A stretch of DNA of 64,000 nucleotides, taken from Chitinophaga sancti (GTDB lineage Bacteria > Bacteroidota > Bacteroidia > Chitinophagales > Chitinophagaceae). The position numbers and the translations under genes were made by a program. This document shows positions 12,291 through 33,932 of the stretch, piece after piece. The stretch is taken from positions 7,528,001 to 7,592,000 of the forward strand of contig NZ_CP139247.1 in assembly GCF_034087045.1 (NCBI RefSeq). The letters are read 5' to 3'. Below the pieces are notes generated by a model. That model was not told where the DNA came from and searched no databases. It was given only the letters and a program-made list of their open reading frames with translations. How positions within the stretch are numbered: position 1 is the stretch's first letter; the number at the start of each line of letters is the position of its first letter.

Positions 12291-12409
12291 AATTTTATTT
12301 AGGTGTCTGTATATATTATCCGGAAATGATGGTTTAGGGTACCTCGGGGGGGAAATATTTTTTGAGATTTTTTTGGAGGGGATGGTTTGGAGGTGGGGTT
12401 TGGGGATAG

Positions 12410-12549
12410 GGTTTGGGAGGGGAATTTTTAGGGGGAGTATTTTAAGGGTTCTTTGGGGGGAGAGCAGATTTTGGGAAAGCAAGTTTTGGGAGGGCAGGTT
12501 TTAGGAGAGTAGATTTTGGGGGAGTATTTTTAGGAGAGCAGATTTTGGG
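12410..12549. repeat. G-rich tandem repeat, about 15-bp unit, between sigma and anti-sigma genes
   Basis: Units close to AGAGCAGATTTTGGG follow one another at 12461-12475, 12476-12490, 12491-12505, 12506-12520, 12521-12534 (14 bp) and 12535-12549. More degenerate G-run units extend left to about 12350. The last two units overlap the 3' end of the sigma gene and encode its final residues (AQNLLS). Runs of G3-G6 on the plus strand make G-quadruplex formation plausible in the DNA; the transcript carries the C-rich strand. Confidence 0.8.
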
Positions 12550-15400: not shown

Positions 15401-16707
15401 TTACGGTTTCGCCAATTGATAGCTGTGATAGATCTTCGGTTGTACAAGGGGTATCCACTCTGTAGTCAGCTTTGCAATCTTATTCCATGTCCAGACTCGT
15501 TTTCCACCCCGATGGTTGAGCCATTTATGGAGCAGATGTTTTGTTCCGTTGTAATAAGTATGCAGCTTCCTACAGTTGAACGTTATACCGTAGTAAGCAT
15601 AATGGCCACGCAGCTTTTGGTTCAGCTCTTCGATCAGTTCCCTTATCGGTAGCTTATGTCGGTAGCACTTGATCCAGTCGCTTAAGCGTTTCAAAGCCTG
15701 GTTCAGTTTCTTACTGTTTGTTTTGCGCTTCAGGATTGGTTTTCCTTTTCGGCTTTTACTCATGTAATGGGTAAATCCTAAAAAGTCAAACGTTTTAATT
15801 GGATGATTTCCGCCCTTCCTTTCTTCTTCCAGATCAATTAGTCTGGTCTTTTCAGGGTGTAAGGTCAAGCCAAATTTCCCTAGTCGCTTCGGCAGTACAT
15901 CCATCACCCGTAAAGCATCTTCCCTGTTTGTAAAACCCAACAGAAAATCATCCGCTTTGCGGATGATAAAGCTGCCACCTCTCAATAATGGCTGGATCTG
16001 CTCTTTGAACCAGGTGTCCAAAACATAGTGTAAATAAATGTTGCTAAGCAACGGGGATAGGGTTCACCCTGCGGCGTTCCTTCTGTCGGATACATCACCT
16101 GGCCATTTTCAAATATGCCGGCCTTTAACCACTTGTCGATCATTTTCCTTATCACGCCATCTTTTATCTTCAGGTCAAGGAACTCCCGTAAACATTGATG
16201 ATTGATACTGCCAAAGTAGTTTTGCATGTCAGCGTCTATTATATAGCGCATCCGGTTTACACTTATTTCTCTGGATAATTCCTCCAATGCATGATGTTGA
16301 GATTTCCCCGGTCTAAAACCATACGAACATGGATAGAATATTTCCTCGTAGACTGGTGTCAGGACTCGGGTTACCGAAGTCCGAAGTAATTTAACTTCTA
16401 ACGTAGGCAAGCCAAGCGGCCGGTATTTGCCCGCTCCTTTAGGTATAAGTACGCGTCGGATATGGGGCGCACGATAAACACCGCTCTTAAATGCAGTCAA
16501 TAATTGAGGTATTCTTTCTTGTCTTTGCTTATTATAATCGATCCATTTTTCTCCATCTGCTCCGCTTGCCACTTTCTTATTGAGGCTATCGAAGCAGGTA
16601 TTTAACATATCAACATTAATAAACTCATGCAGGTTCGTCAAGGCTTCTCCCGGATATTTCTTTGCCCGTGCCGCTATCTGCATCTCTACTGTTAACACTT
16701 CTTTCAT
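15401..16707 (-). pseudogene. Group II intron reverse transcriptase/maturase, frameshifted
   Basis: The 5' part (16707 to about 16065) encodes RT domains 0-4: ASGADG, KYRPLGLPTLEVKLL, YGFRPGKSQHHALE, IDADMQNYFGSI. At 16064-16066 one base is missing from QGG-TLSPLLSNIYL, and the rest continues in another frame (16051-15401) through RT 5-7 and the maturase X domain, ending IYHSYQLAKP. The catalytic YADD box reads KADD. There is no endonuclease domain. Restoring one G gives a continuous protein of about 435 residues, normal for compact bacterial maturases. With the frameshift and the lost Tyr it is very probably inactive. Confidence 0.88.
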
Positions 16708-16749: not shown

Positions 16750-18440
16750 ACAGACATCCCCCTTCCTTACTCAGTGGCTTTCATAGAGCTGATTTTCCAC
16801 CTTTCTAACAGTACTTCCATATAACTAAGCGACATGTTTTTTTAGTGATTCCAGCTTTCTTTCCAAGTAAGCGATTTTGGCATTTTTCCGCTGTTCCTGA
16901 TATTGTTGCAAATCTAAAGGATTGAACTCTACCTTATTTGTAACCATTTTATAGTAAATAGTTGCTATTTTATTGGCGGTTGCTACAATAGCATACTTGT
17001 TTCCTCCTTTCGCCTTCATCCGTCTAAAATAGTCTCCCAGCCAGTGATCACTTCGCTGAACACCGTTAGCTGCCATCCGGAATGCCTGGCTGGCGGAATT
17101 AGGCTTCTTTTTCATCAACTTACTGCTGATTATTTTTCCGCCCGATTTTTTAGTGTTGGGGCATAAATTCAACCAGGACACAAAATGTTTTTCGCTTTTC
17201 CATTTACTCAAGTCAGTTCCTGTTTCTGACAGTATTTCCAAGGCACAGATGTCACTCATTCCATAAATAGCCAGGACATCGACCCGAAGAATATTTTTCA
17301 AAAATGATCTGGTATTAAATATAGGAGCGTTTTTACTCCTCTTTTTTGCTTTGGACAGAATATCTTCTTTCTTTGTTTCTATCAAAGGGATCTCTCCTTC
17401 ATTTTGTATAGCTGCATACCTCTGTAATTGTGCTTCTATTGCTTTCTCGCATGCTATAATTCGTTGCTGAAAGAATTTGTAACTGATATAATTCTCTTCC
17501 AATGTGAACAACTGCTCCGCGCGCCAGTTGCCTTCTAATGATTTTATTATAACTTCATGACTAGCTTTTATGCGATAATCAAGAAATGGCAAAAAATTCG
17601 CAGCATTTCTTTCTCCGGCAATGATAGCTTCGATGATGGCTGTACCAGACTTACCCACTATATCGCTGATCACTGTATGCAATTTAATATTCATCATCTC
17701 CATGCCTTTTGCATCCGCAATACAAACCGGCTACTTTCCTCGGTAAGGGTTCTCCTGTGACGAACCAATGTTCGCAATGTTTCCTGCTCATTTTCCGGCA
17801 AATAGCTGCTTTTTACTAATCCGCAACTATGCAGTTGTTGTAGCCATTCCGCGTCACTCTGATCCGTTTTTCTACCGGTGACATTGCGTACATGCTGTGC
17901 ATTGACCAAATAAACATCAAATCCATACAGAATCAAATAGTTGAATAAAGGTTTCCAGTAAACCCCTGTGCTTTCCATCGCTATGGTATCTATGCCACAT
18001 TTTTCCAACCAATCAACTATTTCCTTTAGATCACAACTCATCGTTCCAAAGACTCGAACAGACTGTTGATCTCGATCTTTGGGAACTGCCACTGCATGGA
18101 TGGTATCCCCAATGTCAATTCCTGCGGCATTCGGATTAACTACAGGCATTGGTACAAAACCTGGATTTGCTACTTTTTTGGATGTTTTTTTGGCATAGAC
18201 TTTTTACTTTAAGAAGCAAAAGAGCTTTGCCTTCAAGCATAAATAAGTATAATCTTCCATACGGGGTCTAGCCCCAATTTGAAACCTAAAAAGCAAGAAG
18301 AACCAAACTATGAGATGAATTTTATATTCATTGGACTGTCAGGTCTTACTGCAAAGTCTTTTGCTTTTTAAATTTATATTATTCTTGAACATCAGTCGGT
18401 GGGCCGCCCCCAGTTATTTTGCGCGAAACATAAGCTGGTT
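16750..18440 (-). mobile_element. IS110-family insertion sequence inside the intron (approximate ends)
   Basis: The transposase gene (16825-18196) is flanked by short non-coding ends: about 70 bp on its 3' side and about 240 bp on its 5' side up to where intron sequence resumes at 18450. IS110-group elements carry a longer non-coding end upstream of the transposase that makes the bridge RNA; the long side here fits. No terminal inverted repeats are expected for this family and none were found. Confidence 0.65.
16825..18196 (-). pseudogene. IS110-family DEDD/serine transposase with two frameshifts
   Basis: Fragment one (18149-17694) is the DEDD RuvC-like domain: AAGIDIGD, AMESTGVYW, KTDQSDAEW give the acidic residues. 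Fragment two (17703-16825) is the transposase_20 domain: CDICALEILSETG-type HhH region, CPNTKKSGGKI with the likely catalytic Ser, and ATANKIATIYYKMV. The halves join if one base is restored near 17700 (after RMQKA). A better start, ATG at 18196, is out of frame because an A7 run (minus strand) would need eight A; restored it reads MPKKTSKKVANPGFVP before MPVVNPNAAG. Full length would be about 455 residues. Inactive as written. Confidence 0.88.
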
Positions 18441-19023: not shown

Positions 19024-19600
19024 TCTTCTTTTTTTGAAACGCCCATCAGGTCTGCGACGAAGGCGAACATTCTATTCATTTTTAAAGTTCGAGGTTTATT
19101 TGTTTTCTTGTTATAATAGATTCCTTCAGGAAATATTCTGAATTGTAATCTTTTGCTTTTCTACATAATTGCTGGAAGCCCACATAGAGGCAGGTTCTGT
19201 GACACAAATAGTAGCTAATTGAATGTATTTTCAAGGTTCGAGGTGTAAATAATGGTTAATTGCAGATGTTCTAACAATTCTACTTTTTCCAGGCTAAACT
19301 TATGCGCAGAATTCTCGTACAACTATTCATTTTTTCTTCAATAAATCGCTCGTCCAGATTTTCTATTTTTTGTTCAAGTCCTGTTAAAATGATATAGAAC
19401 TGTACTACTTTAGGATCGTCTGATGATGAATACCATTCTCACTCACGTTTAAGACACCATTTTCACCTTCACACCTACCCCAGGCAGAACTAGCGGCTGA
19501 TGAATCAGTGATTAAGAAACTAGCAGAGGCTGTATTCATCAAGGCGCTTACCACTTTTTGTTGCTCATACAATTTTATCAACAAAAACGATAAAAGAATC
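19024..19600. other. Intergenic stretch, mostly empty
   Basis: No intact gene. On the minus strand about 45 open codons at 19285-19425 (SSDDPKVVQFYIILTGLEQ, then ENLDERFIEEK) look protein-like but have no start and end in TAG; probably a remnant of an unknown gene. Confidence 0.4.
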
Positions 19601-19606
19601 CAACAT

Positions 19607-19641
19607 TTTGCAACAATGCTTCATTTTATTCTTTATCTTTA
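19607..19641 (+). promoter_or_regulatory. Candidate promoter of the lanthipeptide precursor gene
   Basis: TTTG at 19607-19610 and TATCTTTA at 19634-19641 (near TAnnTTTG) with 23 bp between them. The first element lies within TTTTGCAACA, which also resembles half of the 21-bp palindromes at 28065 and 28206. Confidence 0.35.
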
Positions 19642-19707
19642 TTATGATTGCAATCAGGGAAATCCGACGCCCGTTAAATGTTGGTGTTAATCATTAAAAT
19701 TTATTTT

Positions 19708-19893
19708 ATGAACCTTAAAAATGATCAAAACTTCAAACTCAGTATTGATGAGTTAAAAATTGAAAGTTTCGTTACGAGCCTCGAAAACGAAATGAATATG
19801 CGCCTGTTTGGTGGATTTGGAAGTGAAGAACATCCAACCCATACAGAACAAACAGATGATGAACATCATTTCTGTACTACTATAATTTGCTAA
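19708..19893 (+). CDS. lanA: Class I lanthipeptide precursor (pinensin-like)
   Basis: 61 residues from ATG 19708. The leader has FKLSIDELKIESF, comparable to the F-x-L-D type recognition box of class I leaders, and ends in a double-glycine-like LFGG site. That suits the C39 peptidase of the exporter encoded at 25408. The predicted 25-residue core begins FGSEEHPTHTEQ and ends FCTTIIC, with one Ser, five Thr and two Cys; at most two (methyl)lanthionine rings plus several dehydro residues can form. The core also holds four His and six Asp/Glu. An ATG at 19678 is in frame but adds an unrelated hydrophobic stretch. It converges on the modification genes. The mature structure cannot be read from sequence. 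Confidence 0.85.
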   Translation: MNLKNDQNFKLSIDELKIESFVTSLENEMNMRLFGGFGSEEHPTHTEQTDDEHHFCTTIIC

Positions 19894-19923
19894 TATAGCA
19901 CAGTGTGCTGTTGCAGGCACACG

Positions 19924-19949
19924 CAGGATGATACTTCAGTATCATCCTG
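19924..19949. terminator. Bidirectional terminator between lanA and the LanC-like gene
   Basis: CAGGATGATACT, TC, AGTATCATCCTG. The right arm overlaps the stop codon of the leftward LanC-like gene (19942). Confidence 0.7.
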
Positions 19950-21855
19950 TTTGTCGTTGGTGCCTGGTCAGGAAACCTGCCATTACCAACTCTTTAATTC
20001 GCGCAATGATGAGTTCTTCGATCTTCTCTTTCTTTTCATTGACAAAATATTGTGATCGCCAGTTATATAGTAATGTTTCAACATCAACAGGCCTTCGACA
20101 TGACTCGAGTAACAATGCAGCAATATTGGAAACCTTAACTTGCAGGAGACCTGTTTCCAAACAATAAATAACATATTGATCATTTCCATACCCGTCTGCT
20201 ATAACATCAATATGCGAAACCGTTACAAGTGTTTGTTGTAACCACTCTGATACCGTAAAACGTAAACTCTCATGAATGAATTCTTTTAGTATTAAGCTGG
20301 TCTGACGAAACCTTAGTGAGCCGTTAAACTGAAGCCATAAATGGGCTATTTGCTGTTCCCGTTTGAACATAATTGATAGTGCTGATGCAGGTTCCTCCTC
20401 AGCATTCAATATATATTCATGCAAATGCCGTTCTACTGAATGAAAATCATCGGACAAGGTTATTATTTTTTCATACGATCTGTAATCCTGAACAGTAATC
20501 TGCTGCAAAGTATTTTCAAAATATTTAGAGAAAACTGTTTTTTTAACAGCATAAATACTGTAATCATTTAATTGCCCGGTAGTATCTGGCATAGAAGGAA
20601 ATAGAATCGAATCTGTTTCATGAATTTTAAGACATCCCAACATCCAATACCCTACACCGGCAAGCCCGCTAAATAAACCAGGATCCGTAATTCTCTGTTG
20701 GAGCTTGCTGTTATAGTTGTGCTGTATTTTATAATATTCAATCGCCGCAATGGCAATTGCACACGATTTTTCATGCAGGGAAGGCTCCTGTAATATAATT
20801 GCACCCTGTTGAAATAATACGGCAATACCTCCATAGCCACTGCAAAGGCTGTAATCTATATGCTGTTGTCTCGTAAAATATGACCAGCTATATTTCATTG
20901 CATCCTGAGCTTGTTCTGCATACTTACTGTTTCCCGTATTTTTAAATGCCGATAACCGGGAGATTCCACACCCTGCAGCACCATGTGCCCAGGAGCTTAT
21001 GCCACTCATGCTGGGTTGAAAAGCGGTTAATGGCCACTGAAGTAATTGCTTATCAAACTGTTGATGGATGGTTTTCATGCGGTCAGTCCCTACTCTAAGG
21101 TCCATCCAGTTTTCAGTCTCCTGATCAAAATAACTCATTTCATAGGATAAAGCCTGCTCTGCAAGATAATGTAACCCTGGCGCGTCAAAATATTTTCCAA
21201 CCTCCATAAGTACAAACGCAATACCTGAAGCACCATGTGAAAAGCCGGTAAGACTATCAAAGCTATTTTTATACAAATCCCATCTAAATCCAGTTTGGGC
21301 AATACAGGTATTACTGATCAGTTGCCGGATAAGTGTATGTATGGTCTCCAGCAATTCGTTGTTTTTACAGCTGGCATATAAATGGCAAATTGCCAGAAGG
21401 TTTCCGGAACGGCCACTTAAAAGGTCATTTGACATACTATTGAATAAATCCTGGCGATAGGCTTTTTCAAGCCGTACAGCCGTTTTAATGTAAATATTAT
21501 CTCCTGTCACCTTATACAACTGAACACACAGATACAAAATACCCACAGCTCCACCATAAAAAGTATAGTATTTGGGAGTTAAGACATCCTGATGTTGTAA
21601 TAATCTATCGGCTGCACTTACAGATAATGCGAGATACCGTGGATCAGGGTGGTATTGATATAGGGAAAGAAAAAAATTGATGATACCGGCACTTCCGTTA
21701 AACAGGTCTATGCTCTCACCTTCCTGTCTTTTAGCATCAGGAGCTGGTGTTATCCAAAAAGAACCACTGGCATCCTGCTGCGCTAACGAAATTAGTTCTT
21801 CGGCAATCCGAAAGACTTCACCGGCTATTATTTGCTGATCAGCAGACATTTTCAT
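19942..21855 (-). CDS. lanC: LanC-like lanthionine cyclase with C-terminal extension
   Basis: 637 residues. Residues about 1-410 form the LanC alpha/alpha-barrel with repeated G-x-x-G signatures (FNGSAGIINF, YGGAVGILYL, SGRSGNLLAI, FSHGASGIAF, SWAHGAAGCG, LCSGYGGIAV, FSGLAGVGYW). NisC binds zinc with Cys, Cys, His; here the first position is Ala (SWAHG, about 290), the second Cys is kept (LCSG, about 338) and the His is Ser (339). His207 of FSHG corresponds to the catalytic His. Residues about 430-637 have no recognised motif and end in a PqqD-like or winged-helix-looking helical part. Expected role: Cys addition to dehydrated Thr/Ser. It overlaps the elimination-domain gene by 17 bp, so both are coupled. 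Confidence 0.85.
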   Translation of the reverse strand: MKMSADQQIIAGEVFRIAEELISLAQQDASGSFWITPAPDAKRQEGESIDLFNGSAGIINFFLSLYQYHPDPRYLALSVSAADRLLQHQDVLTPKYYTFYGGAVGILYLCVQLYKVTGDNIYIKTAVRLEKAYRQDLFNSMSNDLLSGRSGNLLAICHLYASCKNNELLETIHTLIRQLISNTCIAQTGFRWDLYKNSFDSLTGFSHGASGIAFVLMEVGKYFDAPGLHYLAEQALSYEMSYFDQETENWMDLRVGTDRMKTIHQQFDKQLLQWPLTAFQPSMSGISSWAHGAAGCGISRLSAFKNTGNSKYAEQAQDAMKYSWSYFTRQQHIDYSLCSGYGGIAVLFQQGAIILQEPSLHEKSCAIAIAAIEYYKIQHNYNSKLQQRITDPGLFSGLAGVGYWMLGCLKIHETDSILFPSMPDTTGQLNDYSIYAVKKTVFSKYFENTLQQITVQDYRSYEKIITLSDDFHSVERHLHEYILNAEEEPASALSIMFKREQQIAHLWLQFNGSLRFRQTSLILKEFIHESLRFTVSEWLQQTLVTVSHIDVIADGYGNDQYVIYCLETGLLQVKVSNIAALLLESCRRPVDVETLLYNWRSQYFVNEKKEKIEELIIARIKELVMAGFLTRHQRQTG

Positions 21856-22693
21856 AAACGTATTGTAAACAGCGATAGATAATGTAAATGCACCAGGGTT
21901 CTTCTTTATTGGAAATGCCCAACCTATTATGAGTCATGTGCAGTAAACTTCTAATAGCGAAATAAAACTGCGGATCCGTAATGCCGGCTTTGGTGTATTT
22001 GTTAAGTACGAAACGATTTTCAAGAGCAAATTTCTGCAAATTTGCAGGAGCAGAACCTGCCTCCAATGATTGCCATAATGCCTGGGCATTTCTATTAAGA
22101 GATGCTGACTGTTTCCCATATAGTTCATTCATGTGTTCCAATAAGGATGCCAACGAAGCATTTTTCATATTAAGGGTCAAAACCCCTAACCATGCTTCGA
22201 TAAACTGTTCACAAATTTTTTGTACAGTGAAAATATCAGCATCAAGCGCATAAAAAAAAGCTACATGCATTTGAAACGCAGCTGCTAGCGCTGCAGAAGT
22301 GTGCCACCGTGATTGTGATAACATAGAATCCAGGCAATAACCGGATGATAGAAAAAATTGTCTCTCAGCCAGCATAATTGTAGACTCATTACCATATCGG
22401 GAGATTTCGGGTAAGTAAGGAATAAATTCAAGTTTGTAACTATTCTGCATTAAAACATTCTGCTGATACCAATCCTGTTCCAGCATCATTTTTACAGCTG
22501 GAAAATAGGTGGCAGGTGTTTGTAACCTGAATCTTATATGTGCCCCATCTTCGCCATATCTTATAAAAAAATAAGGTACTAATGGATGCAGCTGTGGTTC
22601 TAACTTTTCAACAAACGGCTTTATAAACCCACATAACCATTCCTCCGCAGAACCGGTATAAAAAATATGCGCGGATAACCATGTATACTGCAT
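21839..22693 (-). CDS. lanB: LanB elimination-domain protein (thiopeptide-type biosynthesis domain)
   Basis: 284 residues matching the SpaB C-terminal/thiopeptide-type domain: WLSAHIFYTGSAEEWL at the start, FFIRYGEDGAHIRFRL, and the C-terminal ALENRFVLNKYTKAGI then HMTHNRLGI. In class I dehydratases this domain removes glutamate from glutamylated Ser/Thr. In nisin-type LanB it is fused to the glutamylation domain; here it is a separate protein, as known for split LanB systems including Chitinophaga pinensins. It lies 22 bp downstream of the glutamylation gene. Confidence 0.88.
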   Translation of the reverse strand: MQYTWLSAHIFYTGSAEEWLCGFIKPFVEKLEPQLHPLVPYFFIRYGEDGAHIRFRLQTPATYFPAVKMMLEQDWYQQNVLMQNSYKLEFIPYLPEISRYGNESTIMLAERQFFLSSGYCLDSMLSQSRWHTSAALAAAFQMHVAFFYALDADIFTVQKICEQFIEAWLGVLTLNMKNASLASLLEHMNELYGKQSASLNRNAQALWQSLEAGSAPANLQKFALENRFVLNKYTKAGITDPQFYFAIRSLLHMTHNRLGISNKEEPWCIYIIYRCLQYVYENVC

Positions 22694-22715
22694 ATGCTTG
22701 ACGTATTAATTATAA

Positions 22716-25379
22716 TTAAAACTGATACCAATGAACAAGACATTCAGTTACAGTAGGCTGATCTTTGTGACTTTCCAGATAATTAATATGAGGTAGCATT
22801 TCTTCCATATAAATTATCCCGGAGCGTGAAATCATTTTTTTAAATACGTTTATCAGCAAAGGATTAGCAAAATGTATATATTGAGGTTTATGGTCATCAC
22901 GCATGGGTTTTGATTTTTTTTCACCAACTGGTATGTAAGGCGATTGCAAATAAAGAAATACATGCGCCGGAATGCAGACCTCAATTCTCCATTTATTTAA
23001 CCGCACAAACCAGGCAGCTTCCGTCTCTGTCTTTTGTTGAATGGGAATTTTATCACAGGGCACCACCCATCCGGCCCTACGCATGATCACATCATTGTCA
23101 AATACAATCCGTGGTTTTCTGATAATTTCAACATTGTACAGGGCACCTGGGGGGTGAATCATTTTATCAAGCCATACATTGAAATGCCTCATTAAAATGC
23201 GATATTCATTATTGAAATGAGCCAGTAACTGGTAAAAGTTTGACCTTCTGTAAAAGGACTCAAGGCTAAGATCAAATGTAAATACTCTCTTTTCCCATTT
23301 AGTATGCCATAGAAACAATGAATCATCCCTTATGTCAAATCTTACCTCCAGATCTTTTAAATAAACTTGTCGATTAGCAGGATAATTGTTGTGACCACCA
23401 GGTACCCGCAGTTCCCATGGCAGTAAAGGAGGATGCATATTAGCATTAAAACCAGATCCATCACTTAGTTCCATCAGCACATGATCCTTGTAGAGCGCCT
23501 GATTCCATTCGTTAAACTGATTGTTAATCTGATCATCAAACAGATCAACAAAGCGACCAGCTACCTTACCCATACCGGGCAGAAAATGATTAATAACTCC
23601 TTTGAGACCATTATCGTCATCAAAAAACTGCACAAACATTGCCATTGATCCTTTCCGGGGAATGTCAGGTTTCATTTTATCAGTCAGGTTCACTAAAACA
23701 ACGTCTCCATTTTCATTCTTATCAATCTCAATATTCAGGCGATCTAATAATAACTGCTGAATGCTGTCAGGAAATTCTTGCCTGAAATCAGGTATATTTT
23801 GTTGATGAACCACTTTTTTTTCATAAAAGAAATAAGCATGATAAAAACTGGTCACCGGAATAGCCGCATCATTTTTATAATGTTTCAAAAAGAAATTTCG
23901 CATACGATCTCTTTCAGGTTGTAAGGGATCGGCCAGTGCCAGTATATTTCCCAGTGCATGTACTTTGCATGTAAAATTTTGAAACGCTGTAAGGGGGATT
24001 TGCAGTTTATTGGTTACGGAACTATCTTCAAAAAAAATGCCTGATGGTAAAAATGGTTTGGCTATCAATGGAGGCAATTCAAATTGACCGGATTTTAATT
24101 GCGAGATATATGCCAGTCGTCGTTCTTTTGCCTGTTGTTCATCTTCCTGGCTAATTCCTTCCTGCGCCAGCAATCCCTCAACTGTCGTGTTTAATAAAGA
24201 GGCCCCCTGTTGTAATAAATGATAACGCTGGGATGCATCAGCGTTATTATAGCCATGCCGGCTCTCCCTTAATTGCAATAAAGATGAATGCAAAAGATTT
24301 GCAGCGGGATATTGGATAGGTTGTGATTCAAAAAACTGGCATAATTGCCTGTCCCATTCCGGATGTATACCTGAGGTTCCAGTACCTGCTTCCAGAAAGC
24401 CGGCAGCTATCAGCTTCAACAAATAGGATTTTGTTTGCTGCAGATTGTACCCGGAAATCTGGGACAATTGTCCGGTAAGTAAACCAAGCGAAATATCCTG
24501 CCGCTCTTTGAAAAAATCAAGTAGCCATGCTATCACGACTGAAACGGGCATAGTCTGAAAAGATTCGATATTAGAAACGTTTACCAGAAATTGAACCTTA
24601 TCATTTTTTAACTCGATGGAGTTGTTTAAACTAATCAGCAATAGATCGCATAATACGGGATGATGCAGCATCAACGAACGTATGAACCCATAAAGGTTAT
24701 TATTTAGTCTGGTATTGCTGATTATATTTCCCGGTGCCTGAATTCGCAATTCAGGCATATTTTCATTCATCTCTGCTATCCCTGTACTCGTAAATGTGCT
24801 GAATGGTGATGTTTTAAAGGCCATTCTGGTTAGGTACAGCAAAAGACCGTATTCATTTTTAAATTCTTTATGACGAAATGCGGCTGTATCTTTCTTTTGA
24901 AATGAGGGGATCTGTTCATATAAAGATTGACTTGATAAAACCAATCCTTTTTTCAATAACTCATCATCTGCCAATTGCTGCAAATTTCGACGGTGTTGTT
25001 GAACCGACTTTTGGTAATGCTCCTCCCAGGAATCTGTAAGCTCACATAACCTATTATGATAATGGCTGTATTTCTCAAGTTGGACTATCAGCATGTGCGA
25101 AAATGCCTGCGCATCAATAATCGTCTTATTAATATCTTTCTTATTATTTTGAATATCTCTTTTTAATTTGATAAGCCGTTTTCGAACTTCATCACTATGT
25201 TGTTTGGAAATTTCCTGATACAAAGTGTCACATAAAATTTCACGAAGTGTAGAAAGTCTATCTGTTATATTTTGATAAACAACTATAAATCGCGATAATC
25301 CATGTAATTCCAGCTTTTTAAAGCTGCGATGATGCAGAGAGGCATATCGCATAAAAACAAAAGGGAAAGGTTTAAACAT
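22716..25379 (-). CDS. lanB: LanB glutamylation-domain dehydratase (tRNA-Glu dependent)
   Basis: 887 residues of the lantibiotic dehydratase N-terminal family: RKRLIKLKRDIQ region, YLTRMAFKTSPFSTFTSTGIAEM (the typical FxTSPFSxF box), and a C-terminal half with VLMELSDGSGFNANMHPPLLPWEL and RPGAL-type loops. Family role: transfers glutamate from glutamyl-tRNA to Ser/Thr of the precursor core; elimination is done by the next gene's product. Length is normal for a split N-terminal domain. No signal peptide; cytoplasmic, probably membrane-associated with the exporter. Confidence 0.9.
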   Translation of the reverse strand: MFKPFPFVFMRYASLHHRSFKKLELHGLSRFIVVYQNITDRLSTLREILCDTLYQEISKQHSDEVRKRLIKLKRDIQNNKKDINKTIIDAQAFSHMLIVQLEKYSHYHNRLCELTDSWEEHYQKSVQQHRRNLQQLADDELLKKGLVLSSQSLYEQIPSFQKKDTAAFRHKEFKNEYGLLLYLTRMAFKTSPFSTFTSTGIAEMNENMPELRIQAPGNIISNTRLNNNLYGFIRSLMLHHPVLCDLLLISLNNSIELKNDKVQFLVNVSNIESFQTMPVSVVIAWLLDFFKERQDISLGLLTGQLSQISGYNLQQTKSYLLKLIAAGFLEAGTGTSGIHPEWDRQLCQFFESQPIQYPAANLLHSSLLQLRESRHGYNNADASQRYHLLQQGASLLNTTVEGLLAQEGISQEDEQQAKERRLAYISQLKSGQFELPPLIAKPFLPSGIFFEDSSVTNKLQIPLTAFQNFTCKVHALGNILALADPLQPERDRMRNFFLKHYKNDAAIPVTSFYHAYFFYEKKVVHQQNIPDFRQEFPDSIQQLLLDRLNIEIDKNENGDVVLVNLTDKMKPDIPRKGSMAMFVQFFDDDNGLKGVINHFLPGMGKVAGRFVDLFDDQINNQFNEWNQALYKDHVLMELSDGSGFNANMHPPLLPWELRVPGGHNNYPANRQVYLKDLEVRFDIRDDSLFLWHTKWEKRVFTFDLSLESFYRRSNFYQLLAHFNNEYRILMRHFNVWLDKMIHPPGALYNVEIIRKPRIVFDNDVIMRRAGWVVPCDKIPIQQKTETEAAWFVRLNKWRIEVCIPAHVFLYLQSPYIPVGEKKSKPMRDDHKPQYIHFANPLLINVFKKMISRSGIIYMEEMLPHINYLESHKDQPTVTECLVHWYQF

Positions 25380-25407
25380 AGCATTAATTTAGGCGTACAT
25401 CGGTATA

Positions 25408-27612
25408 TTATTTACCAAGTTCCAACTGATTTTTAATCAGATGATAATACGCACCTGCTTTTGCAATAAGGGTTTCATGGTTACCAGATTCCACTACATT
25501 TCCTTTATCTAAAACCACAATCTGATCAGCATTCCGCACAGTACTTAAGCGGTGTGCAACAACTATGACTGTTTTACCCGGAAAAAATAGATTCAGGTTA
25601 TCAACAATGGCTTTTTCATTGTGTGCATCCAATGAATTGGTAGCCTCGTCTAAGAAGATAAATGAGGGATTCTTATAGATGAGGCGTGCTATGAGCAAAC
25701 GTTGTATCTGTCCTTCACTAAGCCCCAATCCATCACGACCAATAATAGTTTCATACCCGAATGGCAATGAGGTGAAAAAATCGTGTATATTAGCTAACCG
25801 ACAGGCTTCATATAACCGGATTGGATCTTTCTGGTCTACACCAGTGTAAACATTGTTAGCTACTGTATCCATAAAAACATATCCATCCTGCATAACTACA
25901 CCACAATGGCGACGCCACCATTTTGCATTTACGTCTTTCAACACAGTGTCACCCAGCAGAATTTGTCCTTCAACCGGATTATAAAATTTGAGTAACAATT
26001 TTAACAAAGTAGTTTTACCACTTCCACTCATACCAACTATTGCCGTTATCTTTCCGGCAGGCAGCGTCAGCTGAATATTTTTCAGTACAAAAGGAGCACT
26101 CCGCAAACCATATTGAAAACTTATATTATCCAGCTGAATATTAGCATGAGCTATCTGCACTGGCATCAGCTCTAATGCGGTGTGATTGTCTTCTTCCGGT
26201 TCCCTGTTTACCTCATCCATTCTTTGCAAACTAAAAAGTGCATTTTGGGAGGTTCGCATAAATTCGGCCAGTTGTAATACCGGCATGTTCAACTGACCAC
26301 ACATGTAGGTGACAGCCAGCATACTACCCATTGTCATATCACCTTTTATTACCAGCATAGCTGCCAAGCCGGTGATTAACACGTTTTTCATTTCATTAAT
26401 AAAAGAGCCTGTACCCTGCATCCATTGGTCCAGGCGTAAACTTCTTAATTTCAGAGAAATACTTTCTTGTTGTAAAGCCTGCCATTGCATTTTTTTCTCC
26501 TGTTCACTCCCTGTAAGTTTTATCTCCTGCATGGCAGAAAATATTTCCAGCAGGATTTTCTGGCTGGCTGACATTATTCTAAATTTTTCCTGATCAATCA
26601 TGTGTCGTTTACTTTTAAATGAACCGGCCCACCATAAACCAACTATACTACTACTCATAAATAGTAGAAAAATCCAGGGATTATAGTAAAACAGGACTCC
26701 TCCAAGCACAATTAATGTGATTAATGACATAAGTAGCGTGACTACCCAGTTAGTCAAAAAATCCTCTATACGCATATTATCGTTTACCCGCTGCATATTA
26801 TCCGTGGAATTGCGGTTGTCAAAAAAAGATAAAGGAAGGCTTGTAAGTTTAAAAAGAAATACCTCCAATAATTGAAGGCTAATAGTAGCTCCTATTCTGT
26901 ACAACCAGCGTGCACGAATAAAATCGCTGAACATCCGGCCCAAAAACAACATCAATTGCCCCATACATATCATCCAGACGATTGAGAGATTGCTGTTTTT
27001 AATCCCCTTGTCAAAAACTGATTGTGTTAAAAGCGGAATGATTAAAGAACAGATACTGGCAATCAGGACTGTAATTACCACGGGGATGAATTGAGCGCGT
27101 TTCGCATGCAAATAAGGCCATAATGACCATAGTGTAGTACGACCTTCTTCAATAACCTGCTTTTCATAAAATTCCTGTTGGGGCTCCATGAATAATGCTC
27201 TTCCCCGAAGTGAAGAGCGATCTGCTATCCAGTGAGCTTCAAACAGGTCTCTTCCATACCGAATAGGTTTACCAATAGCCGGATCTGCCACAACTGCGTA
27301 GGAGTCATTGATATCAGATAGCACTACAAAATGTTGTTTATCCCAATGCAATATGCATGGTGTAGGTGCTTTCTCTATCAATAAGCTTAATGGTAATTCG
27401 CTTGAAAAAGTTTTAAAGCCAATCTCCTTCGCGGCCTCTATAATACCAGCTACCGAAACACCCTGTCTTGTAATCTTACACAGTCGCCGCAAATGCTGCA
27501 ATGGATAAGATTTGCCATAGTATTCAGCAATCATTTTAAGACAGGTTGGACCACAATCCATAGCATCGGATTGCTTGTAAACAGACAAAGGTTTTCTATT
27601 CGTAAAGAACAT
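25408..27612 (-). CDS. lanT: Peptidase-containing ABC transporter (LanT/PCAT type)
   Basis: 734 residues. C39 peptidase domain (about 1-140) with the Cys of MDCGPTCL (20), His of KQHFVVL (94) and Asp of VVADPA (110). Membrane domain about 165-450 with five or six spans. ABC domain with Walker A GMSGSGKTT, signature LSEGQIQR, Walker B FIFLDEAT and H-loop VVAHRL. It removes the leader after the double-Gly-type site and exports the modified peptide across the inner membrane. First gene of the leftward biosynthetic operon. No HlyD or OMF partner is encoded nearby. Confidence 0.95.
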   Translation of the reverse strand: MFFTNRKPLSVYKQSDAMDCGPTCLKMIAEYYGKSYPLQHLRRLCKITRQGVSVAGIIEAAKEIGFKTFSSELPLSLLIEKAPTPCILHWDKQHFVVLSDINDSYAVVADPAIGKPIRYGRDLFEAHWIADRSSLRGRALFMEPQQEFYEKQVIEEGRTTLWSLWPYLHAKRAQFIPVVITVLIASICSLIIPLLTQSVFDKGIKNSNLSIVWMICMGQLMLFLGRMFSDFIRARWLYRIGATISLQLLEVFLFKLTSLPLSFFDNRNSTDNMQRVNDNMRIEDFLTNWVVTLLMSLITLIVLGGVLFYYNPWIFLLFMSSSIVGLWWAGSFKSKRHMIDQEKFRIMSASQKILLEIFSAMQEIKLTGSEQEKKMQWQALQQESISLKLRSLRLDQWMQGTGSFINEMKNVLITGLAAMLVIKGDMTMGSMLAVTYMCGQLNMPVLQLAEFMRTSQNALFSLQRMDEVNREPEEDNHTALELMPVQIAHANIQLDNISFQYGLRSAPFVLKNIQLTLPAGKITAIVGMSGSGKTTLLKLLLKFYNPVEGQILLGDTVLKDVNAKWWRRHCGVVMQDGYVFMDTVANNVYTGVDQKDPIRLYEACRLANIHDFFTSLPFGYETIIGRDGLGLSEGQIQRLLIARLIYKNPSFIFLDEATNSLDAHNEKAIVDNLNLFFPGKTVIVVAHRLSTVRNADQIVVLDKGNVVESGNHETLIAKAGAYYHLIKNQLELGK

Positions 27613-27707: not shown

Positions 27708-28058
27708 TTAAAATATTGAAGGTGGTCCTTTGTTGGCTAAATGGCAGACAATTGGAGATACATAAAATTTATGATAACCAATAAACAGGATGGAATGTAA
27801 TACTACGGCTACATACGGATGCGATAACGCATCATCAAGAAAGATGGAATATTTATGATTACATATTGAGCAAAAGGAATTATTTGAAATACCTGTTCCT
27901 TTTAAAACTACCTTTTGTCCGGATATAGGTTTGGGAATAGCAATTTTATCATCAGCATTTGAATGATGATGCCACAGCTGTACAGGAGTTATAAAAAAAG
28001 AATACAATCCTAAAAGAACAGCCGCGATAATATGCCGGTATGGTTTGAGAGTGATCAA
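27708..28058 (-). CDS. Small membrane protein with CxxCxH motif (paralogue A)
   Basis: 116 residues, probable TTG start at 28058. One N-terminal membrane span (IIAAVLLGLYSFFITPVQLW) followed by HHH, then SFCSICNHKYS and a C-terminal NKGPPSIF. The divergently transcribed gene at 28229 is a clear paralogue sharing LLGLYxF, PVQxWHxH, CxxCxHxYS and NKGPPS. I do not recognise a named family. The His cluster and CxxCxH suggest metal or haem handling. A 21-bp palindrome lies 7 bp upstream of the start. Confidence 0.7.
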   Translation of the reverse strand: MITLKPYRHIIAAVLLGLYSFFITPVQLWHHHSNADDKIAIPKPISGQKVVLKGTGISNNSFCSICNHKYSIFLDDALSHPYVAVVLHSILFIGYHKFYVSPIVCHLANKGPPSIF

Positions 28059-28064
28059 CTAAAC

Positions 28065-28085
28065 ATTTGCAACATTATTGCAAAT
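28065..28085. promoter_or_regulatory. 21-bp palindrome, candidate Fur/Zur-type operator 1
   Basis: ATTTGCAA-N5-TTGCAAAT, perfect 8-bp arms, just upstream of paralogue A. Confidence 0.6.
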
Positions 28086-28205: not shown

Positions 28206-28226
28206 ATTTGCAACATTGTTGTAAAT
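28206..28226. promoter_or_regulatory. 21-bp palindrome, candidate Fur/Zur-type operator 2
   Basis: ATTTGCAA-N5-TTGTAAAT, one mismatch from site 1, immediately upstream of paralogue B. Confidence 0.6.
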
Positions 28227-28228
28227 CA

Positions 28229-28585
28229 TTGCTACTCCTTCTTAGAAAATATCGTCTGCAATTCGCAGTTATATTACTTGGTCTGTATTGCTTCATCGCA
28301 ATGCCGGTTCAGGTCTGGCACAAACATGCCCATCCTGTAACAGGAAAAACCATTATTTCAAATAAGTCCGGAACGGCTATAATTTACACGAGTAAGAATT
28401 ATGTAAAGGATTGTAAAGTTTGTGCTCATCAATATTCAGGGTATTATGATGATCAACAACGGATCCAAATTGATCCTGTAGTATCCTATCTATTCCTGCG
28501 CGCGGTTATTACCCCGTTCCTGTCAGAGCTCCCCTCCTATGGTTTATTAAATAAAGGTCCCCCCTCTTTCGGTATTTCCATATAA
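28229..28585 (+). CDS. Small membrane protein with CxxCxH motif (paralogue B)
   Basis: About 119 residues from TTG at 28229; an upstream in-frame TTG at 28208 lies inside the palindromic operator and is less likely. N-terminal span FAVILLGLYCFIAMPVQVW, then HKHAH, CKVCAHQYS, a second hydrophobic stretch near the end and NKGPPSFG. Paralogous to the divergent gene at 27708. It precedes the TonB-dependent receptor by 100 bp and is probably co-transcribed with it, which fits a helper in metal or metallophore uptake. Function is inference. Confidence 0.7.
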   Translation: MLLLLRKYRLQFAVILLGLYCFIAMPVQVWHKHAHPVTGKTIISNKSGTAIIYTSKNYVKDCKVCAHQYSGYYDDQQRIQIDPVVSYLFLRAVITPFLSELPSYGLLNKGPPSFGISI

Positions 28586-28684: not shown

Positions 28685-31042
28685 ATGATCCAACGACTAT
28701 TTTCGTTCATCATACTTCTTCTTATTTCAGGAAATATCTTTGCTCAACATGGAAAAATTCAGGGTCGGATCATAGGCCCGGATAAAAATCCATTGGCAGG
28801 TATTTCGATTAAACTGGAACCACACGGATCTGCTACGCAAACGGATGACAATGGTAATTTTGAATTCGGTAACATTCCTCGCGGCAGTTACGCCCTTATT
28901 GCCAGTGGCGTTGGATATCAGGCCAAAAGCAGCCAGGTTCAGATAAGCGATGGGAAGTTAATATTTCTAAGCCTTGAATTAGATATAGCAACGTCTACTT
29001 TGAAGGAAGTAAATATTAGTGCGGCCCAATCATTAGCTACTGCCAAAGTACTTACAAGAATGAATGTTCCCATGAGAGATATTCCTCAAAATATCCAGTC
29101 GGTCAACAGATCAGTCATTGATGACCAGCAGATTTTCCAACTCGACCAGGCTTTTAAAAATGTAGCTGGTATTACTTCCACCGACTATTACGGAGGTTTC
29201 AGTTCAAGGGGATATACATCCGGTGTTGGTGGGATCACTACCAACGGGATAAAAGGATCACCCTATCCCGAAGGACAAATTCCGTTACTTGGTAATATAG
29301 AAAGCATAGAAGTCATTCATGGGCCTAGCGCTATCCTTTTTGGCCCCGGGGGCATGGGCGGTAATATCAACCTGGTTACCAAACAACCTAGAAAAAATAC
29401 AGTTGTAAATGCTTCTGTCGGTGCAGGTTCTTTTGACCTCATCCGGGCACAGGCAGATGTAAGTGGTAGCATTAACAAAAAAAAGAGCCTGTATTTTCTA
29501 GCGGGTGCCGCTTTGCAGAATGGAGGTAGTTTTACACGAGATTTTGACCGGAGAAATATACAGGTATATGGTGCTGTTAAATGGGAAATTGCGCCCCGCA
29601 CTACCTGGCAGATCAATGGCAATTATATAAACGATGATGTAAGCAATAATTATCAACCCCGCGTTCCTATTTATAACAGCCCTGATAAAGACAGCATATT
29701 CCTTGTACCCCACGACTTTAATCCAGGAAAAGACAGCCGTTACAAAGGCAATAATATTCAGGCTCAATCCATCATGGAGCATAGCTTTTCAGACGATTGG
29801 AAAATTGGATTCCTGGTTGCCTATAACGAAGCAAGAGCAAATCGCAGACAATACACAGCCGCTGGCTTTGTAAATAAAATTGATAATACAGTGAGCCGCT
29901 CTTACACGTGGCAAAACATCAACTCTCCACAAACATCGATCAATCTTTATGGTGTTGGAAAGTTAAATACCTGGGGAATTCATCACCAATTTGCGATGGG
30001 TGGAGATGCTGTCCTTACCCGTAATAATTATCCTGATGGCATTACTCAATATTCAGCGTCAAAATTGTCCGTATTTTCTGCTGATGAGCAAACACATTAT
30101 GACAGTACCGGAAATATAGTATATGCTAATACTTCCTTTGAGAAATTCACGTATAATATTCTGGGGGCGTATATATTGGATCAGATTGTGATTTTACCAA
30201 AACTAAAATCCCTTGTAGGATTAAGATATAACAACTATTTCCGCCGTTATCTTGCACTGAAGCAGGATGGTTCCATCTTATACGATGAAAAGCCGGAGCG
30301 TACTGAAAATTTCTCTCCCCGTCTTGGACTTGTCTACCAGCCTGTTAATACCGTCTCAGTTTATGTTGACTATAATGAGGGTTTTTCACCACAATATGGT
30401 AACTACGCTGAAAGCGGTGGCCCTTTTGATCCGGAGACCTCCAAACAGTATGAACTTGGAATAAAAGGGGAATTTTTCCATAGCACACTCCTTCCCTTCG
30501 TGACGGTTTATCAAAGCACTAAGAAAAATGTATTGCAGGCAGCACCACGCGATGGTTTTCCAAATTGGCGCGAAGCCATTGGAGCAGTTCAAAGCCGTGG
30601 TGTTGAACTGGGTGTGACAGGAACCGTATTCTCAAACCTGTTTATCAATTTAAATTATAATTATAACAGTACAAAAATCACCGAAAGCAAGAAACCAGAA
30701 GAGATTGGACAGATTCCTGCCAACTCACCGAAAAACTCATCTAATGGTTGGTTAAAATACTCCTTCCGTAATGGTCGGCTGAAAGGGTTATTCATCGGAG
30801 GTGGATTTCAGAATGTAGCCAACCGCTATTTCAGTGCTAAAAAGGTAGGAGCCACCGTATTGCAAATGCCATCTTATACTTTGTTTGATGCATTGATTGG
30901 ATACCGGTATAAGCAATACAGTCTGCAGGTAAATGGAAACAACCTCGGTGATAAACGATATGCAGTCAGTGGGATTACGAACTCCTACACTCCGGGCATG
31001 CCGCGCAATCTGCTTGCCACCCTTAGTTGTTCATTTCGATAA
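28685..31042 (+). CDS. TonB-dependent siderophore-type receptor
   Basis: 785 residues: signal MIQRLFSFIILLLISGNIFAQ, a carboxypeptidase-regulatory-like beta-sandwich (about 25-105), plug (VPMRDIPQNIQSVNRSVIDDQ; GFSSRGYTSGVGGITTNG; IEVIHGPSAILFGPGGMGGNINLVTKQP) and a 22-strand barrel ending in an aromatic residue (LLATLSCSFR). The DIPQNIQ... and GFSSRG plug motifs are those of FhuA/FpvA-like siderophore receptors rather than SusC. The gene follows paralogue B and precedes an ABC-2 transporter. Likely imports a ferric or other metal chelate. Confidence 0.92.
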   Translation: MIQRLFSFIILLLISGNIFAQHGKIQGRIIGPDKNPLAGISIKLEPHGSATQTDDNGNFEFGNIPRGSYALIASGVGYQAKSSQVQISDGKLIFLSLELDIATSTLKEVNISAAQSLATAKVLTRMNVPMRDIPQNIQSVNRSVIDDQQIFQLDQAFKNVAGITSTDYYGGFSSRGYTSGVGGITTNGIKGSPYPEGQIPLLGNIESIEVIHGPSAILFGPGGMGGNINLVTKQPRKNTVVNASVGAGSFDLIRAQADVSGSINKKKSLYFLAGAALQNGGSFTRDFDRRNIQVYGAVKWEIAPRTTWQINGNYINDDVSNNYQPRVPIYNSPDKDSIFLVPHDFNPGKDSRYKGNNIQAQSIMEHSFSDDWKIGFLVAYNEARANRRQYTAAGFVNKIDNTVSRSYTWQNINSPQTSINLYGVGKLNTWGIHHQFAMGGDAVLTRNNYPDGITQYSASKLSVFSADEQTHYDSTGNIVYANTSFEKFTYNILGAYILDQIVILPKLKSLVGLRYNNYFRRYLALKQDGSILYDEKPERTENFSPRLGLVYQPVNTVSVYVDYNEGFSPQYGNYAESGGPFDPETSKQYELGIKGEFFHSTLLPFVTVYQSTKKNVLQAAPRDGFPNWREAIGAVQSRGVELGVTGTVFSNLFINLNYNYNSTKITESKKPEEIGQIPANSPKNSSNGWLKYSFRNGRLKGLFIGGGFQNVANRYFSAKKVGATVLQMPSYTLFDALIGYRYKQYSLQVNGNNLGDKRYAVSGITNSYTPGMPRNLLATLSCSFR

Positions 31043-31053
31043 ATGGTGCTATC

Positions 31054-32475
31054 ATGATAACAAGAAATTCAGTATTGACAATTATTAAAAAGGAATATCT
31101 CTCTGCCATTCGTGATAAAATTGTTTTGGTACTTGCCTGCATTGCATGGCTTCTAATAGGATTTGGCGCATTTACCGGATGGCTGCATTTGAAAAAAAGT
31201 GAAATACAGAAACAACGGGCAGCCTCCCTGTTTCAGCAAGAATGGGAAGAACAGCATGCTAATCCCCATTCCGCAGCCCATTTTGGAACCTATCTTTTTA
31301 AACCGGGCTCTTTACTGAGCATGTACGATAACGGGTTGAATAATTATCTTGGTAACAGCTACCGGGTGGAGGCACACATTCAACATGAGGTAAATCAGTC
31401 GGAAGCCGAGGCCTCCGATAGTCAACTTAGGTTTGGAGAATTGTCTGTTGCCCTGGTGTTCCAGCTGCTGATACCGCTATTAATTTTACTGATTACTTTC
31501 AACACTATTACCCATGAGCGGGAAGGAAATACACTCCGCGTATTATTGATCCAGGGTATAAGGCCCTCTCAAATTGTGTGGGGAAAAATTCTGGGTATTT
31601 ACACCATTATACTTACTGTAATTTTTCCAGCACTATTATTAATGGCTTCCCCTTTCCTGTTTAAAATGCCAGGCAAAGATATCCTCCTTCGATTCCTGCT
31701 GTTCTCATTAAGTTACCTGTTGTTTTTCTTTATCGTTGTTTGTATAGGTGTTATTATTTCAACATGGAATAAAACATCTAATGGAGCGCTCGTAACAGCG
31801 CTCGGTTGCTGGCTGTTTTGGGCTGTACTAATGCCAAGGGGTGTGGCCCGTCTTATTGATGCTTCTGATCCCTTACCCTCCCGGTATGAACTGAGCCGTA
31901 ATATCACCCGTGGAAATCAGTTGGGCATGGGAAACGATGGCTCCTCGCTTGAACGGTATAAAAAATATATGGAACAAACGCTCAAAAAATATGGCGTTGA
32001 TAGCGCCTCTCAACTTCCTATAAATTTTGATGGCTTGTCAATGCAATATGGGGAAGATTATAATGCAAAGGTATACGAACGTTACGCCGGAAATGTAGAA
32101 TCGATCATTAAAAAGCAACAATTCCATATGGAACAGGTAGGTCTGCTTAATCCATTTATGGCTATACAACAGTTTTCAATGGGAGTAACAGGCACTGATT
32201 ATTTTCATCATCTTTATTTTCATCACCATGCAAAAAAATACCGCGACAATTTTATCCGAACATTAAATATGGAACTTGCCAATAGTGGTTCTAAATATCT
32301 TTCATACAATTACAAAGTAGGTCCTGATTTCTTCAAAAAGATGAAAACCTTCAGCTACACCCCACCGGCCTTTGAAAACGCAATATGCTGGCATATTTGG
32401 GCTATGATATCCTTATTACTTTGGCTGGTCATTTTAATAATAATAATTCCTCTTGTAGCAAAGAGATTAAAATAA
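31054..32475 (+). CDS. ABC-2 type permease (DUF3526-like) 1
   Basis: About 473 residues from ATG 31054 (the ORF is open 9 codons further upstream, inside the receptor's 3' end). Membrane spans at about 15-40, then a long periplasmic loop and five C-terminal half spans (LIPLLILLITFNTITHEREGNTLRVLL; LLLMASPFLF; LLFSLSYLLFFFIVVCIGVII). The HEREGNTLRVLLIQG motif is typical of NosY/ABC-2 permeases. Works with the second permease and the ATPase downstream. Substrate unknown; neighbours suggest peptide export, immunity or metal handling. Confidence 0.85.
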   Translation: MITRNSVLTIIKKEYLSAIRDKIVLVLACIAWLLIGFGAFTGWLHLKKSEIQKQRAASLFQQEWEEQHANPHSAAHFGTYLFKPGSLLSMYDNGLNNYLGNSYRVEAHIQHEVNQSEAEASDSQLRFGELSVALVFQLLIPLLILLITFNTITHEREGNTLRVLLIQGIRPSQIVWGKILGIYTIILTVIFPALLLMASPFLFKMPGKDILLRFLLFSLSYLLFFFIVVCIGVIISTWNKTSNGALVTALGCWLFWAVLMPRGVARLIDASDPLPSRYELSRNITRGNQLGMGNDGSSLERYKKYMEQTLKKYGVDSASQLPINFDGLSMQYGEDYNAKVYERYAGNVESIIKKQQFHMEQVGLLNPFMAIQQFSMGVTGTDYFHHLYFHHHAKKYRDNFIRTLNMELANSGSKYLSYNYKVGPDFFKKMKTFSYTPPAFENAICWHIWAMISLLLWLVILIIIIPLVAKRLK

Positions 32476-32480
32476 TAAAC

Positions 32481-33920: not shown

Positions 33921-33932
33921 AAAATATTTGTT

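Follow-up and report, generated by a model that had tools for sequence, protein, structure and literature searches.

What does a lanthipeptide maturation pathway gain when its cyclase has lost the zinc site? The question is raised by a locus in a 64,000-nucleotide stretch of Chitinophaga sancti DNA (NCBI RefSeq assembly GCF_034087045.1, contig NZ_CP139247.1, positions 7,528,001 to 7,592,000; hereafter, the window), in which a class I lanthipeptide precursor stands beside a split LanB, an exporter, and a LanC-like protein whose three zinc-ligand positions read Ala290, Cys338, and Ser339. LanC is the usual zinc enzyme of class I pathways. As judged from its genes and their products, the locus is a pinensin-family class I lanthipeptide cluster of Chitinophaga; the loss of the zinc site runs through the whole family, and the promoters of the cluster carry a palindromic operator that looks like a box for Zur, the zinc-sensing regulator of the Fur family. 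Taken together, a pinensin-family locus under zinc control by Zur and equipped with a metal-free LanC is the reading that we favor, with a probability of roughly 0.6.

The precursor, split LanB, exporter, and LanC genes lie where the first-pass annotation of this DNA had put them. Its range for the locus (19708–27612) stops too early, leaving out the receptor and transporter genes (28685–34637) and three operators (19608, 28067, and 28208) that are part of the locus; the TonB receptor and the ABC-2 transporter were absent from its list of members. The features are as follows, in window coordinates.

19608–19624, no strand: operator (Zur-box-like palindrome), 3 mismatches; ends 83 bp before the precursor start codon, the same distance as in most relatives having the site
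19708–19893, plus strand: pinensin-family precursor, 61 aa, leader ending in LFGG, core FGSEEHPTHTEQTDDEHHFCTTIIC
19923–19950, no strand: terminator-like hairpin of 12 pairs between the convergent precursor and LanC genes
19942–21855, minus strand: LanC-like cyclase, 637 aa, with a C-terminal extension of ~220 residues; Ala290, Cys338, and Ser339, with Asp144 and His207 kept
21839–22693, minus strand: split LanB elimination protein, 284 aa (PF14028, TIGR03891)
22716–25379, minus strand: split LanB glutamylation protein, 887 aa (PF04738; 6ec7 match)
25408–27612, minus strand: ABC exporter with a C39 peptidase, 734 aa (C39, ABC-membrane, and ATPase domains); predicted to cleave the leader after GG and to export the peptide
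27708–28058, minus strand: m1, small His/CxxC protein, first gene of the exporter–enzyme strand; no Pfam match
28067–28083, no strand: operator, 1 mismatch, directly upstream of m1 and the exporter–enzyme genes
28208–28224, no strand: operator with 1 mismatch where m2 starts, preceding the receptor and transporter genes
28208–28585, plus strand: m2, small His/CxxC protein, paralog of m1; start codon uncertain
28685–31042, plus strand: TonB-dependent receptor of siderophore type (TIGR01783; score 250.2 bits, cut-off 223.5)
31027–32475, plus strand: ABC-2 permease with DUF3526
32385–33920, plus strand: second ABC-2 permease with DUF3526
33933–34637, plus strand: ABC transporter ATPase

The domain matches listed bear out both the split LanB and the C39 exporter of the first-pass annotation. 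Promoter scans with sigma-70 and TANNTTTG patterns were uninformative (1 found against 2.0 expected, and 54 matches against 67.6 expected).

The LanC alignment was used to scan for related loci; 321 places were confirmed, and 80 loci were kept. The close set comprises 31 loci (L006–L036) from Chitinophaga, Pedobacter, a Sphingobacteriaceae metagenome-assembled genome, Sphingobacterium, and Sinomicrobium; L037, L038, and L053 were used for contrast, and 14 further loci (L039–L052) were scanned for precursors only. In all 31 relatives, the exporter, glutamylation, elimination, and LanC genes lie on one strand in the same order, and a homologous precursor is found beyond LanC on the opposite strand, at a distance of 5–527 bp in 29 of them; the gap is wider in L012 (1025 bp) and L011 (7260 bp). 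Because the exporter, the three enzyme genes, and the precursor are shared by 31/31 related loci, the cluster is not a product of chance. A receptor homolog is likewise present in all of them, often truncated where the stretch ends, and the permeases in 30 (L011 being without). The small proteins m1 and m2 are divergent paralogs (33% identity) with His-rich and CxxC stretches and with an operator at the start of each; no homologs were detected at 1e-3 in the loci of the 31 relatives, that of Chitinophaga sp. YR627 (L012) included, nor in Pfam.

The precursor had been described as a pinensin-like protein of 61 aa, and this description holds. LFGG occupies residues 33–36, the 25-residue core contains one Ser, five Thr, and two Cys, and the leader passes the NCBIfam model NF038180, "pinensin family lanthipeptide" (5e-10; 39.1 bits, cut-off 24); the core pattern and gene set are common to the 31 relatives. 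The cluster of YR627 resembles that of the window in its leader, split LanB, extended zinc-less LanC, C39 exporter, and receptor and transporter genes. The YR627 core, SHPTHTVATDDEGHLCTTIICA, is reported to be identical to pinensin (PMC9248904), and comprises 22 residues, the length reported for pinensin A (PMC10112250). For the pinensin cluster of C. pinensis (BGC0001392), the LanC-like protein P0071 shows Ala, Cys, and Ser at the ligand positions, the triad also present in the LanC of L012, and is 80% identical to P0060, a protein of YR627. The window core, EHPTHTEQTDDEHHFCTTIIC, follows the same four-residue stretch and differs from pinensin in lacking both the Ser at position 1 and the final Ala and in the residues between. 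To this extent the earlier inference of a new lanthipeptide is supported, and a homolog search with the precursor returned six proteins, none named as a known lanthipeptide.

The LanC-like protein, in turn, had been credited with an altered zinc site, about 200 extra C-terminal residues, and possibly unusual cyclization chemistry. Its length and ligand positions are as described, and the PF05147 match ends at residue 413, followed by the extension. The alteration of the zinc site is thus real, but it is no mark of new chemistry in this locus, because the whole pinensin clade shares it: Ala290 stands in 97/97 distinct clade rows, the YR627 LanC included, and a loss peculiar to this locus is rejected. 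Pinensin, the product of a cluster of this type, is reported to carry two methyllanthionine rings (PMC13060382). The alignment (121 rows, for which the 120 homologs listed of 227 LanC homologs were used) contains 98 pinensin-clade rows, 97 of them distinct as the window's own protein (P0006) is counted twice, and 23 outgroup rows. Throughout the clade, Ala290, Asp144, His207, and Arg254 are invariant (98/98), with position 338 being Cys in 86 rows, Val in 6, Ser in 3, Leu in 2, and Phe in 1, and position 339 being Ser in 94 and Asn in 4 (locus L026 has Thr). The outgroup reads Cys (22 rows) or Ser (1) at position 290, Cys (22) or Ala (1) at 338, and His (18), Cys (4), or Asn (1) at 339, with Glu at position 144 in 7 of the 23. 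All three ligands are gone in the 10 of 31 relative loci having Val at 338, as against two of three in the window. None of the 16 clade-specific positions listed looks ligand-like, Lys196, Asp200, and Tyr242 apart. A tree of 62 of the 123 rows, made by a quick method with a thinned in-group and showing several long branches, needs two losses of the zinc site, one at the root of the group that unites the pinensin clade with its nearest kin (38 rows; support 97 in the Shimodaira–Hasegawa-like approximate likelihood-ratio test, SH-aLRT) and one in the Aminicenantes locus L037.

The ratio of nonsynonymous to synonymous substitution rates (dN/dS) is 0.12–0.22 for LanC (9/12 pairs computable, all of Sphingobacteriaceae), 0.09–0.22 for the LanB half (9/12), and tighter, 0.04–0.06, for the exporter (11/12); LanC is under purifying selection and is constrained about like the LanB half. 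In 5 of the 31 genomes (G308, G311, G314, G316, and G324; drafts, completeness not given), the zinc-less LanC is the sole LanC-like protein found, and in four of these five it reads Ala, Val, Ser; a zinc-type LanC acting in trans is hence unsupported as a general answer. Asp144 and His207 align with an Asp and the HG-motif His of the zinc enzyme LicM2, and are likely the counterparts of Asp141 and His212 of NisC. In LanCL1, zinc serves to activate the thiol, and protonation of the enolate falls to the conserved His (PMC9934072); the LanCs considered here are described as akin to LanM cyclases (PMC7268733). Besides PF05147, the protein has a weak GH76 match and no kinase or lyase domain. Its extension looks by eye like a plausible recognition element for ribosomally synthesized and post-translationally modified peptides, but sequence searches of Pfam and the PDB returned no firm match; PqqD matched 1 of 18 extensions (0.037) and 1 of 48 whole proteins (0.13).

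Two loci outside the close set carry zinc-less LanC-like proteins of their own. That of Aminicenantes (L037:9207–12040) has Ala, Ser, and Glu at the ligand positions, is without the catalytic Asp and His, and represents the independent loss; two Cys-rich precursors adjoin its gene, and no LanB homolog was found in the stretch. The Hymenobacter locus L038 (6279–8901 and 12023–12274) has a single-Cys core and a glutamylation homolog spread over two overlapping frames.

Sites resembling TTGCAACATTGTTGCAA were first noticed by eye, and a search of the whole window at up to 3 mismatches followed. They occur in three places, all in this cluster (5 strand hits against 0.46 expected), and precede all three transcription units, namely the precursor, the exporter–enzyme genes, and the receptor genes, the last two in the divergent region. 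Promoters of the window and the 31 relatives (from 300 bp ahead of the called start to 20 bp past it) were scanned for TTGCAACnnnGTTGCAA at up to 2 mismatches. The site was found in 22/32 precursor promoters and 25/32 exporter promoters, with each of the 31 relatives having it in at least one of the two; in the window, the exporter site stands one gene further up, before m1. With 200 scrambled palindromes, the means were 0.025 precursor and 0.015 exporter promoters, with a maximum of 1, and maxima of 7 and 5 at 3 mismatches. Among the 25 cases of a precursor site at up to 3 mismatches, 23 have it 80–86 bp before the start codon, and L029 and L035 at 134 and 135 bp.

The operator goes along with the state of the cyclase. 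It is present in 33/33 zinc-less Bacteroidota loci (the window, the 31 relatives, and L038), and absent, at up to 2 mismatches, from 8/8 zinc-type loci, whose LanCs read Cys, Cys, His (L149–L152, L053, L228, and L230) or Cys, Cys, Cys (L229). The contrast is seen even within one genome (L031 against L228, and L033 against L229), and L230 comes from the genus of the window. Among the eight zinc-type loci, L149, L228, L229, and L230 only are full split-LanB clusters with an exporter; of LanB, L152 shows just the elimination half, whereas L053 has an exporter but no LanB, and L150 and L151 lack LanB. The sister clusters L149, L228, and L230 resemble the window in split LanB, extended LanC, related leaders, and C39 exporter, but differ in keeping Cys, Cys, His, in having longer cores (Cys-rich in L149 and L228, not in L230), and in lacking the operator. 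With ~0.08 sites expected per 20-kb stretch (34 places in the 8.3 Mb of the own genome), the absence is unremarkable by itself; it is the presence in the other loci that makes the contrast. The loci counted are related by descent, so that the counts do not amount to independent trials. L149 (7740–11155), representing another family of the class, encodes four precursors with related leaders and Cys-rich cores next to a zinc-type extended LanC.

The operator is read as a Zur box because it is shared with zinc-homeostasis genes (zigA-like and other CobW GTPases, Fur family, TonB receptors, and ZIP). In the genome of the window, it occurs at up to 2 mismatches in 34 places, against 10 for the reversed-pattern control. 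Ten places have 1 mismatch, and eight of these lie at this cluster or at starts of metal-type genes: a zigA-like CobW GTPase (520 bits to NF038288, below the cut-off of 600), a second CobW (L170:4948–5934), alkaline-phosphatase, MerC, and TonB receptor genes. A 2-mismatch site directly precedes a Fur-family gene (L168:3903–4313; PF01475) beside a third CobW gene; its product is not recognized as Zur by NCBIfam and has weak PerR matches only. GTPases of COG0523 have been tied to zinc homeostasis (PMC2770081). Genes resembling zigA were found in 32/32 genomes, and 24 of the 30 loci that could be examined have the site at up to 2 mismatches in the promoter (scrambled mean 0.07, maximum 4). Five relatives searched whole gave 15 places with at most 1 mismatch, against 5 in the reversed-pattern control, including a perfect copy before a pair of SCO1 and Fur-family genes (L188) and a site before a pair of DtxR-like and ZIP zinc transporter genes (L193), with other close sites near TonB receptors or in pinensin loci. 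In Hymenobacter L038, a zigA-like gene (19052–20230) lies within the pinensin-type locus itself. Outside the window, its genome holds two similar gene sets near the operator (L168 and L170), each with a CobW GTPase, an ABC ATPase and permease, MerC, and alkaline phosphatase; the ATPase and permease of the L168 set are LolD- and FtsX-like.

The core peptides of the family are conserved in a way that suggests a ring pattern. In the 32 precursors (window and 31 relatives; 26 distinct), Thr8, His9, Thr10, Thr13, Asp14, Cys20, Thr22, and Cys25 are invariant (pattern PTHT..TDD..C.T..C) and Asp15 is kept in 31, with Thr21 being Glu in three and the core Ser not conserved. In pinensins, two methyllanthionine rings are reported, each Cys being bonded to a residue N-terminal of it (PMC13060382). 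It is most likely that Cys20 joins Thr13 and Cys25 joins Thr22, because these Thr and Cys residues are invariant and Thr21 and the Ser are variable; Thr8 and Thr10 would most likely be left as dehydrobutyrine. The calculated mass of the 25-residue core is 2913.197 Da, or 2841.155, 2823.144, and 2805.134 Da after loss of 4, 5, and 6 H2O; a 21-mer, expected if trimming follows that of pinensin, would have 2493.033 Da, or 2420.990 and 2402.980 Da after loss of 4 and 5 H2O. The residues His9, Asp14, and Asp15 would suit a metal site.

We infer from the neighboring genes that zinc is the effector of the operator, and the locus may then work as follows. Zinc-loaded Zur would block the three promoters, and zinc starvation would open them. 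The split LanB would dehydrate Thr by glutamylation and then elimination, and LanC would close the two methyllanthionine rings without a metal, using the retained Asp144 and the likely general acid His207. The C39 exporter would cut after GG and secrete the peptide. Because LanC is the usual zinc enzyme of the pathway, its loss of zinc would free maturation from that metal; dependence on zinc would be a handicap for an enzyme called upon in zinc shortage. The product probably has a part in the response to zinc starvation, most plausibly as a peptide that binds zinc and re-enters the cell by way of the siderophore-type TonB receptor and the ABC-2 transporter. Judged by gene order, these four receptor and transporter genes are probably the counterparts of the pinensin genes to which perception and import have been ascribed as a proposal (PMC10112250). 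That the product is a zinc scavenger is a tentative proposal, at a little better than one chance in three. In the same tentative vein, pinensins and their relatives might be seen as Zur-controlled ribosomal zincophores with zinc-free maturation, a LanC turned metal-free for that purpose, and re-uptake by their own receptor.

Several observations weigh against this account. The effector is read from the company that the operator keeps. The site before the precursor of the window is weak, with 3 mismatches, as in L008 and L009; seven relatives (L010–L016) have no precursor site (4 or more mismatches) and the site at the exporter operon only; and in 4 of the 25 exporter promoters that have it, the site shares bases with the called start codon. 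Two of the ten close sites in the own genome are without an obvious zinc role (one inside an open reading frame, one by unlinked genes), and the zigA-like site there overlaps the called start of the reading frame. Six of the 30 zigA-like promoters (L203, L205, L206, L207, L210, and L218) and 4 of the 15 close sites in the five relatives (L190, L192, L194, and L195) have no site and no clear zinc link, respectively. The split between zinc-type and zinc-less loci amounts to one main evolutionary event and hence to one main contrast, and the zinc-less Aminicenantes locus has no operator nearby, although the Asp and His are missing there as well. Pinensin is reported to be active on fungal membranes (PMC13060382), which is not needed of a scavenger.

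The last point leads to another account of the product, which agrees with the favored reading on zinc control and a metal-free LanC: a Zur-controlled antimicrobial made in zinc starvation against competitors, with the receptor and ABC-2 transporter serving self-protection or sensing and not zinc uptake. ABC-2 transporters often confer immunity. Such a role would also fit the membrane-disturbing, antifungal activity of pinensin and the proposal of homologous genes for its "perception and import" (PMC10112250), but the receptor passes the siderophore-receptor model, and the near-invariance of His9, Asp14, and Asp15 is what a metal binder would need; we regard this account as a possibility worth keeping in view, at a little better than one chance in three. 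If, instead, the locus were an ordinary pinensin variant with a real operator, with zinc starvation unrelated to a LanC that became metal-free by drift, it would follow the precedent of class III LanKC, in which metal-free cyclase domains are known (PMC10604976), and the Aminicenantes protein, zinc-less and extended without an operator, would find its place. The division of the operator between 33/33 zinc-less Bacteroidota and 0/8 zinc-type loci, also within one genome, makes this unlikely. The operator might also answer to iron or another metal through Fur or Mur. The receptor is of siderophore type, and a DtxR-like regulator lies beside one site, with a gene resembling FeoB by eye further on; given the site at most zigA-like promoters, at CobW GTPases, and at a ZIP zinc transporter, however, we consider a metal other than zinc improbable.

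The cyclase itself admits two further explanations. Zinc-ligand mutants of zinc LanCs are reported to lose cyclization (PMC9889658; cited in PMC9934072), and the genome of the window has eight PF05147 matches, of which some are parts of a single frame, so a catalytically dead LanC, with rings closing spontaneously or through another LanC or LanM of the genome, was considered. Purifying selection like that on LanB, the His and Asp kept in 98/98 rows, and the lack of any other LanC-like protein in the five draft genomes render it quite improbable. That LanC still holds zinc or another metal through other residues is more doubtful again: Cys338 is kept in 86/98 rows, but Ala290 stands in all, Val replaces Cys338 in 10 of the 31 loci, and only the three residues excepted above among the clade-specific positions listed might offer ligands.

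The favored reading, a pinensin-family locus with zinc control and a metal-free LanC, touches on several known systems. Pinensins, split LanB, zinc-less LanKC, the kinship to LanM, and LanB paired with undefined cyclase triads are already known. In ThurKC, a class III LanKC, all three zinc ligands are replaced, as in 10 relatives, against two in the window; ThurKC also replaces the equivalents of NisC Asp141 and His212 (Ser608 and Asp667; PMC10604976), whereas the clade of the window keeps Asp144 and His207. Class III LanKC fuses kinase and lyase to the cyclase, and dehydration in the window would be due to LanB, without such a fusion. The same enzyme combination, LanB with a cyclase of undefined triad, appears as "B-Unk" in a survey with 14 predicted peptides (Table 1 of PMC11251773), whose main text names no pinensin or Chitinophaga; no cause for the undefined triad was found in the parts consulted. 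The likeness proposed to the Zur-regulated metallophores staphylopine, pseudopaline, and EDDS (ethylenediaminedisuccinate) lies in synthesis under zinc starvation with dedicated import, zinc binding by pinensins being putative; these three are not ribosomal peptides. Zinc-free ribosomal proteins offer a parallel case of doing without zinc. Apparently new are the link of a Zur-type operator to pinensin clusters and the family-wide loss of the zinc site; neither family-wide loss in pinensin clusters nor a Zur link to pinensins or lanthipeptides was found in the literature searched, mostly titles and abstract openings, and Mohr 2015 and Caetano 2020 may mention either.

Elsewhere in the window lie a TonB receptor (1152 aa) with FecR and an ECF (extracytoplasmic function) sigma factor on the minus strand (7491–13123), a protein with a HipA C-terminal domain (13485–14438), a group II intron-type reverse transcriptase split over two open reading frames (15401–16707), an IS110-type transposase in two frames (16825–18149), and a protein with a Zeta-toxin-like kinase domain (38429–39370).

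An operator shared with genes of zinc-starvation type gives a testable reason for the loss of a conserved catalytic metal site, a loss usually read as drift or oddity. If the reading is true, lanthipeptides would gain a role in metal nutrition, zinc chelation would be a way to switch on a possibly silent antifungal family, and a stand-alone class I metal-free cyclase that keeps the His and Asp would isolate the part played by zinc in ring closure. Should the peptides prove to be zincophores, the antifungal action of the family might come partly from starving or attacking neighbors when zinc is scarce.

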